Shown one piece after another: positions 11,622-41,163 of a stretch of 64,000 nucleotides of DNA (position 1 is the first letter of the stretch; each line of letters begins with the position of its first letter). Origin of the DNA: Arctopsyche grandis (Eukaryota; Arthropoda; Insecta; Trichoptera; Hydropsychidae). The notes beneath the pieces were generated by a model. It did no database searches. It had not been told where the DNA came from and was given only the letters and a program-made list of their open reading frames with translations. The stretch is from the NCBI RefSeq assembly GCF_051622035.1, contig NC_135355.1:5084001-5148000 (forward strand). The letters are read 5' to 3'. Both the position numbers and the translations under genes were made by a program.

Positions 11622-11656
11622 TATACTACAAGCTTCAACTTTAAGTCACTCAGTGT
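11622..11656 (+). promoter_or_regulatory. Core promoter of gene A (TATA and initiator)
   Basis: TATACTAC at 11622 lies 30 bp upstream of the A in CTCAGTG (A at 11652). The same TATA-to-TCAGT spacing and the following GTCTTC are found upstream of B, C, D, E and F. Confidence 0.65.
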
Positions 11657-11694
11657 CTTCAAGTTCGCCAAGGAAGTTAGTTCATTGAAAAAAT

Positions 11695-12662
11695 ATGAAA
11701 AAAATTAAGGTTTAACATATCATTGAATTAACATCATTTATAATTTAATTAAACAAAAAGATCGGTTGAATAATTAATTAAATTTTGCAGACATTTATGA
11801 TCATTTGTAATTTAATAGTAACTTCATCGACTCTTGATTTTAATGCGAATAGCGAACCTAAAAATGCGACAACTTTCGACGAATTTAACATGCCTTGGGA
11901 CGGTGAAAACTATTCATTCGGGTAAGACATGTGTTCGAGTAAACATATGTGAATATTTTACTGATAAACTTAAAACAAACACCATCGCTGATGATGAATT
12001 TTGCAGATATCTTACCTCACAGGGGCAGTTCAGAACGGAGAAAGGATACTGGGTAACTGCTCCTAACGGTGTAATGTTTTTAATGATTGTTGGAGCTTAC
12101 AGCAAAATCCTTCATGGCAATCGTATTCAAGTTATTGATTATTATTCCGATTTAAATGGTTACCATGAAAAATTGGGATTGCCTTTAGCGGTAAATGTCA
12201 TTGAATCAAATTTTACTTGCCTTTAACCAGGATATATGTACATATGATTATTATTTTTCATGATTACATGTTTCAGGAATATCTGGAAGATTCCAAAATA
12301 TCACGGCCACAACCAAACTCATTGAGTACAAGTCCATCACCCATCGAATTTGATACTACGGAAAAGCCTATTTCAACTTCTCCAGATCCTGCAGAAGCTG
12401 TAGAAATTGGGGGCATATTGGGAATTGTATGTTTATTTTTTATATTTTGAATTTGTATTTTATGTACATATGTACATATGTATATATATATATATATATA
12501 TAATTTTTTCAGAGCATCGGTGATAAAAGCACCCTCGGAAATATTGTGTTAGATAAAGATTTTATGATCTCTAAGCCCAAGCTAACAGATCTCATTGCTA
12601 AAAGGATGCGACAAATGAAAAGAGCCATTTTGATAAAATGGAATTCGACCTTGAAAATATAA
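11695..12662 (+). CDS. Gene A: divergent RR-1-like cuticular protein with basic C-terminus
   Basis: Five exons: 11695-11709, 11791-11921, 12007-12190, 12277-12426 and 12513-12662, all with GT-AG introns; 209 aa. MKKIK plus TFMIICNLIVTSST forms a signal peptide. Residues 41-110 (WDGENYSFGYLTSQ, FRTEKGYWVTAPNGV, VGAYSK, QVIDYYSDLNGYHEKLG) align with the RR-1 chitin-binding fold (YxFxYxTSDG...EG...VxGxY...VxYxADxNGY), but the usual proline after GY is replaced. Exon 4 (111-160) is Ser/Thr/Pro-rich. Exon 5 (161-209) holds DKSTLGNIVLDKDFM and AKRMRQMKRAIL. The splice phases match canonical RR-1 genes (break after the YxFG glycine). Inferred to be a secreted cuticle protein; the C-terminal module is not one I recognise. 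The first exon is supported by promoter spacing and by homologues. Confidence 0.85.
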
Positions 12663-37683: not shown

Positions 37684-38435
37684 AATTAAATTATATTTAA
37701 CAAATTATTTATAATAGTGTTTAACCACTATGTCCTATGTGCAAAGTTCCTCTTAGATAAATTTATTTAAATTATTTATAAAATATATACATGTGTACAT
37801 ATTTATCTAATTTTAATTTTAATTCAACATTGCTGTTTCTTAATGCAAAATTTTTCATGAATGAACTATGAATACGTACGTTTTGTCAAAATGAGGTAGT
37901 ATATACATAAACGTTGTAGGTCTAAGACGAGTTTTTCAATATATATGTAGTTGTATAATACATATAACACGATCATTTCAATTTATACATTCAGTTGGTA
38001 TCATTCCGTCTATTCGTTTACATATGTACATATCGTTCGTATAGTGTTGGATTTCGTCATGAAACAAAGTCAACTCAATTTTTATATATTTATATAAACT
38101 CAACTCAATTTTGATTTATTTACATAAAATATATATGTTGTGATAAATAGATTTTCGCTACAAAATTTGAGTGGAACTTCCCAAGTAAAATTTTATCAAC
38201 ATAACTTGCATATCAAATTATCATGTTTTATATCTATAATAGTATAAAATATATACATATATAAATAAAGTGGCGGAAATTTTACAACAATATATATATA
38301 CATTAAATAATAACTATATATATGTAAATGTACATATCATATATATAAAAGTGATTCGTGAATTACATAAAAAGTTTTACATCATATGTATATTTTGTAA
38401 ATTGTATTGTACTATATTACTTAAATATAAATAAA
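37684..38435. other. Spacer between G and H, AT-rich
   Basis: No repeat or gene recognised apart from TATG/TACA simple sequence. Confidence 0.45.
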
Positions 38436-41163
38436 ATGACTATCAACATTATAACTACATTTATAATTATTTCAAATCTCACATTCTTAACAATGACTCT
38501 GAATTTTGACGTGAATAGTGAACCAAAATTTGCAATAATGGAAAATACAACATTTTGGGATGGTGAAAATTATGTCTTCAGGTAACATTGTTTCCGTTTT
38601 TATTTTAAAGAACAGTATCTATTAAAGGTTTTATTTTTACACAATTCTAAGTCTTACGAATTTACTATGATTTTTATCGGATACAACCTCGAAAGTTGAA
38701 TATCACAGTTCAAGACCAAAAACATTTACATAATATGATCATTACCAGTTTTTATAAGTTGAATAAACTTTATGTAAATGCTTTTTTTTTAAATATTTTA
38801 CAGTTATTTTGCGTCTCAGAGATCGTTCAGAATTGAAGAAGGATTTTGGGAAACATCTCCTACTGGAGAAAAATCTCTGGTGAAAGTGGGACTTTTCACA
38901 AGACTCCTATTTGACAATAAAATATACACGGTTGAATATTATGAAGATACAACTGGATATCATGAAAAATTAGGATTGCCTTTGGACGTTAGTTTTGTTT
39001 AATAAAATTGGGAATATTTCATATAATGCATAGAAGATATATTGTAATATATGTAAGTTGACTTTAATTTTTTCAGGAATATCTAATACAAGAAATAACA
39101 ACTATTACAGATGAACCAGTTATGATAGCAGTCGATAATAGATTTTACATACCTAGTTCGGTATGGATATTGTTTTTTTACTTTATCTACATATGTACAT
39201 AGTAATAATTGATGAAATCTTGTGATCATGCGAAAATCCAAATTAGAGATTTTAACTCGAAATCGGAATCTATAACTGTCACGTTTTCATGGTCTAGAAA
39301 AAGTGTTGTATATTTTGGAGATTTTTTGAACACCGCTAGTCGTATCTAACTTAAATTTGGTATCGGTTACTAAAATGCTTATCGATAAGACGTATTTTTT
39401 TCGAATTTTTTAGTTCAACGGAAATAGTACCTCCCATTATAGGTGTCTTTTTTTGAGTTTTTGATTCGATTATATCCTAAACCGTTCCACGGATCAGACT
39501 GAACCGTTTTTCATATATGTAAATAGAAACGATAAATTTCATACATTGATATTTTTAAAATACTTTCACCATGAGAACCAAGGTTTTTTATGTTTATCTC
39601 AGAAACCTTTCAGTGTATTGAGCTGAAATTCCATATCTAGAGGTACTATAAAAAATAAAATGTAGACATGTTACAGTTGACTAACTGTAAGTCGCAACTG
39701 TATCTAATTAATTGAATATATGTGCTCTTCACAAAAAAATTCCAATATAATCCTTGTATCGATTTTATGTAAATAAAAATACGTTATTTAATGTGGGATT
39801 TTTTCCTCTTATAAATGTTAAAAATGTTGTGACCACACGATTTTCCTTTATGTTTGACATACATAACCATGTACATATGTATGTACATACCTTAGAGCTG
39901 ATAAGGTTGTGGTTAGAATTCATTAGGCAAAAGTAGCAATTTTTTTTAAACAATATTTCATTATTTTATTTTGAACTTTTAAATTATTTCTATTAATATT
40001 TATAGTGGTTTTGATTTATTGTTAAATTTTTTAAGTAGTTACTACTTAAATTTAAAACCGAAACTGAAAATAATTACCTTAATTTTTTTAACCAGGCTCT
40101 ACAATAAATTATTTATAATCTGTATAAGAATCATTTTTTCAATTGAAAGAAAATGTATAGATATATATATATATATATAACGTCTCAAAGTACATAAATG
40201 CTTTGGAATGCTAGTAATTCATATGTTATTTTGAATTACAAAAAAATATTGTTAGTTCAAGAAAATGGTTCTGCCTTAAGGAATTCAAACGTGACTATAT
40301 ATACATACATACATACATACATACATACATATACATACATACATATATTTGAGGAACATTAGTAAATATGTAGTATCAAAAAAAAAAATTTGCAAACAGC
40401 AAATCTCGATACTTGGACAATTTGAATTTTCAATAAGAAAAAAGCTCTAGTTCCAGCTATCAATTTTTGTCCAATTTTTTTGCTTATCAATATTGCATTA
40501 AAGATAATAAATATCAATAGGCATAAATAATTTTAAAAAACAAAATTATATAAAAAAATATTGTTTAAAAGAAAATTACTACTTCTAGCTTATGGATTCT
40601 AACTCCGTGTAATTATTACATTAATAATACATATATAATTTATCAGGTTTATACGTTAGTACATAGTGTTGGACGTGTAGTAACGCCACATTTGATTTTT
40701 CTATAAGGAAAAAGTCCCATTTCCGTTTCATAATAATAAGGACCATCTAGTAATTTTCTCGGGAAGAGCACACATATTTAATAGCCAATTAAAATATAAG
40801 AGAAGGAAATGCGATCAAATTTAACTGCCATTTCCGATTAATCAAAACCTCATATTACGATTGTCAAAGTATTATTTATTGCACAATTACACAGTAGATA
40901 TTAAAATTACCATCTAGTATCAACCGTACTTATTACGCTGACCATAACATACTTACTTACACATGTATAATATGTACTTTTTTTGTAAGAAGGTAATATT
41001 TGCCATATATTATATTAAATTACGTATTTCTAATTTTTAGAGTGGTGTTACATTGTCTCTCGCCAGCTCATATGCAATGAATAAGAAGAACAGTTGCGAC
41101 ATTATTGATTGTGTCAAAACCTTACAGAAACTTCAGCAATTGAGACTGTCAAGAAAAAAGTGA
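38436..41163 (+). CDS. Gene H: most diverged member of the A-F cuticular family
   Basis: Exons 38436-38581, 38804-38987, 39077-39160 and 41041-41163; 178 aa. MTINIITTFIIISNLTFLTM is the signal peptide; as in gene D, it begins in the exon that carries the mature N-terminus. Residues 40-110 hold FWDGENYVFSYFASQ, FRIEEGFWETSPTGE, VKVGLFTRLLFDN and VEYYEDTTGYHEKLGLPLD: the same exon borders and lengths as A-F (184-nt RR exon) with many substitutions. The linker exon is only 28 codons and not proline-rich. The tail exon (SSGVTLSLASSYAMNKKNSC to LRLSRKK) keeps a basic end but has two cysteines and lacks KRMRQMKR. The last intron is 1.9 kb and filled by dispersed repeats, so joining to the last exon is probable rather than certain. 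Confidence 0.75.
39185..40080 (+). repeat. Dispersed ACCGGAAGT-family repeat in the last intron of gene H
   Basis: It begins AGTAATAATTGATGAAATC and runs through TTTTTTGAACACCGCTAGT and GGAAATAGTACCTCCC to diverged copies of the 1-960 repeat. It follows the same order as the window start and 58715-58990. Confidence 0.8.
40600..40870 (-). repeat. Reversed, decayed copy of the same repeat
   Basis: AAAGTCCCATTTCCG and GCCATTTCCGATTAATC correspond in reverse to the GGAAGT-bearing units. It forms an inverted pair with 39185-40080 inside one intron. Confidence 0.6.

Follow-up and report, generated by a model that had tools for sequence, protein, structure and literature searches.

Are the divergent genes that stand in tandem at this locus members of the RR-1 class of cuticular proteins, and what might they gain from a short basic tail encoded by an exon of its own? 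The locus lies in a window of 64,000 nucleotides (nt) from Arctopsyche grandis (C1:5084001-5148000; positions without the C1 prefix are counted within this window). A first-pass annotation had reported five genes here (A, C, D, E and F) together with a pseudogene, an orphan exon and a distant member (H). We find this array in place, with intact frames and matching phases around a 184-nt RR exon in the five genes, a broken pseudogene (B), a linker exon followed by a stop, and H (Table 1). Judged by their sequences, the genes are kin to RR-1 genes, and the tail exon is coding and under purifying selection. Our data suggest, at about an even chance, that the products are RR-1 matrix proteins whose tails would bridge electrostatically to acidic partners.

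Kinship with the RR-1 genes

Gene models were rebuilt from splice sites in the genomic sequence. A, C, E and F each comprise five coding exons (15, 131, 184, 144-183 and 141-201 nt) with GT/AG ends, an open frame and intron phases of 0, 2, 0 and 0 that match across the four genes; D comprises four coding exons, likewise with GT/AG ends and an open frame. The 184-nt RR exon is common to A, C, D, E, F and H and to a further member, Z, outside the window, and a 131-nt exon precedes it in A, C, E and F. The first exon of 15 nt encodes MKIVE or a similar peptide and joins a leader that was judged hydrophobic by eye. Short first exons are usual in the cuticular RR gene family (PMC2259329, in part), and exon 1 is the least certain part of our models because its donors are weak. 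In D the acceptor AG of exon 2 is lost, an in-frame ATG at 19495 can stand in for exon 1, and an intron of 2.3 kb lies upstream of the RR exon. AATAAA occurs within 500 nt downstream of A, C, D and H; it was not found within that distance after E, F or G37, a sister gene without the basic tail that is additional to the first-pass list.

Scored on joined exons against Pfam PF00379 (Chitin_bind_4; curated cut-off 25 bits), A, C, E and F reach 29.3, 31.5, 28.7 and 27.9 bits, all above the cut-off; D, at 24.9, falls 0.1 below it, and H, at 16.3, is also below. G37 reaches 53.1 bits on joined exons; the RR exons of the ordinary RR-1 genes I, J and K have values of 75.3, 45.5 and 73.3, and Z, at 29.4, is likewise over the cut-off. 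The initial view that the RR fold is recognisable only through the spacing of residues was therefore somewhat overstated for A, C, E and F. Two results speak in its favour. An exon-by-exon PF00379 scan of the host genome (475.7 Mb in 189 contigs; E-value at most 0.001) gave at least 148 matches, with 150 of 165 candidates scored, and many of these matches lie on C1 near the window. The list includes Z and G37 but leaves out A, C, D, E, F and H. In addition, A alone, H alone and a six-gene profile (RR exons of A, C, D, E, F and H) matched none of the solved RR chains.

A profile of seven members that included G37 did match one solved chain, 9l0p (called chitin binding protein), over 66 residues without gaps (E-value 4.1e-9), and a profile that also included I, J and K matched it at 1.2e-15. 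Since it vanishes without G37, this match comes from the less divergent members, and a match to a solved chain is not supported for the divergent members themselves.

The RR-1 core motif is YxADExG(Y/F). The five genes depart from it with YYSDLNGY, and H with YYEDTTGY; it persists in G37 (YIADENGY) and, as a nearly canonical core, in Z (YYADESGY). The loss of ADEN and of the trailing prolines was correctly reported; the five genes have SDLN in place of ADEN. The aromatic triad is YxFxY in A, C, D, E, F, H and G37 and YxFxF in Z. A tryptophan two residues past the ExG motif (GYW, GFW or GMW) marks A, C, D, E, F, H and G37 and is not present in Z, I, J or K. The phase-2 intron of the tailed genes splits the same codon as in the ordinary genes I and K.

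The likeness to RR-1 genes (CPR family, PF00379) extends to a hydrophobic leader, a short first exon, the aromatic triad, an RR domain with an intron at the triad, and a tandem cluster (PMC2259329, in part). The differences lie in the core, which is SDLN in A-F, ADES in Z and EDTT in H in place of ADEN, in the added tryptophan, and in the two exons that the tailed family adds for a linker and a basic tail. More than two introns are found in 52% of Anopheles RR-1 genes (PMC2259329, in part).

Z was found by local tblastn over 200 kb upstream and 30 kb downstream of the window. It lies at C1:5055352-5056404 (L026:1352-2404), about 28 kb upstream, and has exons of 131, 184, 51 and 129 nt in the family's phases; its first exon was looked for and not found. 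Since Z combines the near-canonical ADESGY core with a basic tail, it ties the family to RR-1. Nearby, at L026:4167-4397, lies a broken copy in which a remnant of exon 2 is fused straight to a remnant of the tail, with stops, and the RR and linker exons are gone.

Searched against the host genome, the RR exon of D gave ten matches (E-value at most 0.1), all within C1:5055557-5122987; they come from A, C, D, E, F, H, G37 and Z and, as two fragments, from B. The query misses ordinary RR-1 exons and therefore shows its limit of sensitivity. The tail exon of D found four tails, those of A, C, D and E, and missed those of F, H and Z. Relatives were not found in prokaryote genome contigs (protein of gene E as query) or in viral contigs (profile query), as expected for an insect gene.

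In a midpoint-rooted tree of 22 RR sequences (the seven tailed genes, G37 and 14 other RR-1 sequences of the cluster, two of the 16 ordinary RR exons read there being omitted), the seven tailed genes form one clade (support 91/95) and G37 comes next (81/87). The order of branching, apparently Z, then H, then A-F, is tentative because only two of 19 inner branches are fully supported and the root is a midpoint. Membership of RR-1 by descent is indicated by Pfam scores, intron position and the bridging genes Z and G37, and the first description of a tandem family of divergent RR-1-type genes was correct.

A constrained tail exon with its own history

The tails of A, C and D contain KRMRQMKRAI exactly, and those of E and F contain the relaxed forms KNMKKMKREI and MKLKKLKREI, as had been reported. 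Over the ten pairs of A, C, D, E and F, the ratio of nonsynonymous to synonymous change (dN/dS, NG86) in the tail is 0.16-0.60, with 0.28 for A-C, 0.16 for A-D, 0.33 for C-D and 0.37 for E-F. Fisher tests, made on six of these ten pairs, give an excess of synonymous change (p=0.03 to 1.4e-5), the pairs not being independent of one another, and the differences between the tails of A and D fall at codon positions 1, 2 and 3 in the proportion 6, 4 and 14. The tail is a separate exon, as first described, and these patterns argue that it is coding and under purifying selection. For comparison, dN/dS is 0.10-0.71 in the RR exon (the 14 of 15 pairs where it is defined, H included) and as high as 1.09 in the linker, where three pairs with H are saturated. 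Conservation in A, C and D is not confined to the basic segment, and the segment GNIV-D is about as well conserved.

Profiles of the tails were compared with 2000 shuffles. Against the profile of A, C and D, the tails of E and F both score above every shuffle, and the tail of Z scores 7.0 bits, reached by five; against the profile of A, C, D, E and F, Z scores 10.4 bits, better than all 2000. The Z tail is basic and holds CxxxxC, a spacing also found in the putative tail of H. The latter was equalled or beaten by 454 shuffles with the five-gene profile and by 1604 with the three-gene profile, and we reject it as proven by sequence; the exon rests on its position and phase. A basic tail in G37 was also rejected: the tail profile gives its C-terminus no score, and the protein closes with LVxSLLG, as does that of the ordinary RR-1 gene at C1:5045238. 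LVxSLLG is another recurring ending in this cluster.

The premise that ordinary RR-1 proteins end shortly after the RR domain generalised from three genes: at least four of the 16 other RR exons in the cluster carry a C-terminal stretch of their own (PPPIPEAIQRALDYIASLP and PLVASLLG are examples), and several of the 16 run into an intron. Pfam at an E-value of at most 1 gave a single match over the tails, at chance level, in gene E (E-value 0.1), and the best match of the tail profile in PDB has an E-value of 0.31. A constrained C-terminus beside a chitin-binding domain has a parallel in RR-2 proteins with a conserved C-terminal motif (PMC2259329, in part). That motif is histidine-rich and belongs to RR-2 genes, whereas the tail here is rich in lysine, arginine and methionine, belongs to RR-1-type genes and has its own exon. 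Among the titles and abstract openings listed by literature searches on tandem divergent or C-terminally extended RR-1 genes, we found no such tail described, which is weak evidence of absence. The tailed branch of RR-1, described here from the host genome, is a local variant within a very large and familiar gene family.

The linker of C (17654-17836) has glycine at the start of 14 of 15 successive triplets and scores 25.2 bits against Pfam Collagen, below the cut-off of 27.2. Collagen-like adhesins of NCBIfam match one of seven members, presumably through this linker. The orphan linker exon at 25843 has a short run of similar kind past its stop.

Heads and tails appear to differ in age. Identity between E and F is 92-99% from 150 bases upstream to the end of intron 4, drops to 83% over the tail exon and is 49% past it; the two are a recent copy or a conversion pair. 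Over 23390-24868 and 28589-30054, their exons 2-4 and introns 2-4 agree at 96-99%, and the similarity falls abruptly at the tail exon. In five of seven pairs tested (ten possible), the tail shows more synonymous change than the RR exon (p<0.05); the contrast is not significant for C-D (0.08) and C-E (0.27). At informative sites, the RR exon of D agrees with E and F 10 times and with A and C 9 times, against 0 and 29 times in its tail. In our reading, the heads have undergone gene conversion or unequal exchange and the tails are older, though part of the D pattern could instead reflect faster change in the tails of E and F. Conversion-type exchange occurs among Drosophila cuticle genes, in whose concertedly evolving CPR arrays the RR part is likewise more alike between copies than the ends (PMC2793513, in part). 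Here, by comparison, the more similar part is a separate exon, and the tail has its own history, as in D.

What the tail might contribute

In A, C, D, E, F and H the body carries a net charge of -7 to -11 (isoelectric point, pI, 4.3-4.6) and the tail, putative in H, one of +2 to +11 (pI 9.4-10.5). Z has the same split (body -7, pI 4.6; tail +5, pI 10.1), and G37 is without it (body +2, tail 0). The suggestion of the first-pass annotation that the tail could bind an anionic partner fits these charges because the proteins' own bodies are acidic; the binding itself we infer.

The tandem RR-1-derived genes carry two extra downstream exons, one for a variable linker, rich in proline, serine and threonine or collagen-like, and one for a short basic tail. 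We propose that the protein would be secreted into the cuticle, where the RR part would sit on chitin and the tail, probably helical, would reach out on a flexible linker towards the acidic bodies of neighbouring molecules or other acidic matrix proteins. There it might serve as a non-covalent cross-bridge or an aid to condensation. Coacervation of an RR protein with chitosan was reportedly described by Vaclaw in 2018 (cited in PMC12426002).

Several observations weigh against electrostatic bridging by chitin-bound RR-1 proteins. The tail charge of C is just +2, and the amphipathic moment of the tails is weak (shuffle p of 0.048 in A, 0.099 in C, 0.051 in D, 0.022 in E and 0.122 in F, and 0.43 in the putative tail of H). 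Solved RR chains go unmatched by A, H and the six-gene profile, and chitin binding may be altered in A-F and H because ADEN has become SDLN or EDTT. Weakening of the structural argument leaves our estimate as it was, because that estimate draws on Pfam scores, charge, the position of the intron and the bridging genes. A far more specific scheme strikes us as a long shot: self-complementary chitin cross-linkers, in which acidic chitin-bound heads would recognise helical, basic tails on sister molecules, linkers that differ between paralogues (proline-rich or collagen-like) would set the reach, and gene conversion would keep the heads alike and let the tails diverge.

Ordinary RR-1 divergence is a possible but rather unlikely alternative, under which the tail would be a lineage-specific C-terminal flank with no special role. 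The flanks of cuticular RR proteins vary widely (PMC2259329, in part), the neighbours in the cluster end in differing motifs, the tails of E and F are more diverged and linker dN/dS rises to 1.09; a flank of this kind fits less well with a tail dN/dS of 0.16-0.33 among A, C and D and with a pattern of acidic body and basic tail that runs from Z to F. We consider it improbable that the tail is a propeptide, cut at basic residues after secretion to release a cationic peptide with an antimicrobial or signalling role. A short, basic, slightly amphipathic C-terminal segment on a separate exon has the right appearance for one, and A, C and D contain KR pairs, but the first KR pair is gone in E (KNM) and F (MKL), though KRE stays, in A, C and D the segment GNIV-D is conserved about as well as the basic one, and by eye no amidation signal was seen in the tails. 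It is very unlikely that the exons do not belong together or that the genes are decayed copies, since the complete frames of five genes, their matching phases and the constraint on the RR and tail exons outweigh the broken B, the lost exon-2 acceptor of D, the fused remnant in L026, models built from sequence alone, weak exon-1 donors and the lack of AATAAA within 500 nt after E and F.

How cuticular proteins hold to each other and to chitin is described as unresolved in PMC5395146 (in part). With its near-constant RR head, varied linkers, graded basic tail and tail-less sister, the array forms a natural paralogue series in which cross-linking or condensation of cuticle protein by charge-paired tails could be tested, and it illustrates the addition of extra exons to RR-1 proteins.

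Features of the array and its surroundings

A linker or tail of its own was looked for in B and not found, and neither was a first exon of G37 at its locus. The last intron of H, before the putative tail exon, is 1.9 kb long.

Table 1. Positions of the tailed genes, their relatives and neighbouring RR-1 exons within the window
Feature	Position	Strand	Exons and remarks
Gene A	11695-12662	+	11695-11709, 11791-11921, 12007-12190 (RR), 12277-12426 (linker), 12513-12662 (tail)
Pseudogene B	15435-15837	+	exon-2 remnant 15435-15563; RR remnant 15686-15837 in two frames
Gene C	17071-18070	+	17071-17085, 17181-17311, 17397-17580 (RR), 17654-17836 (collagen-like linker), 17930-18070 (tail)
Gene D	19495-22655	+	19495-19634 (own ATG), 21942-22125 (RR), 22200-22403 (linker), 22494-22655 (tail)
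Gene E	23901-24851	+	23901-23915, 24007-24137, 24212-24395 (RR), 24468-24611 (linker), 24690-24851 (tail)
Orphan linker exon	25843-25959	+	85% identity to linker of A over 39 residues; in-frame stop after
Gene F	29095-30078	+	29095-29109, 29199-29329, 29404-29587 (RR), 29660-29803 (linker), 29878-30078 (tail)
G37, sister gene without basic tail	36968-37683	+	36968-37104, 37194-37497 (RR, ADENGYHP), 37579-37683 (ends LPPGLVGSLLG)
Gene H, distant member	38436-41163	+	38436-38581, 38804-38987 (RR), 39077-39160 (linker), 41041-41163 (putative tail)
Ordinary RR-1 gene I, RR exon	48140-48332	+	intron at same phase-2 position
Ordinary RR-1 gene J, RR exon	53964-54141	+	
Ordinary RR-1 gene K, RR exon	55135-55327	+	intron at same phase-2 position

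Two further elements were seen in the window. An inverted repeat around 25290 forms a long palindrome-like element at about 25100-25480. At 1878-6271 there are two long overlapping frames of 567 and 898 residues from stop to stop, which we take to resemble the two genes of a retrotransposon without long terminal repeats.

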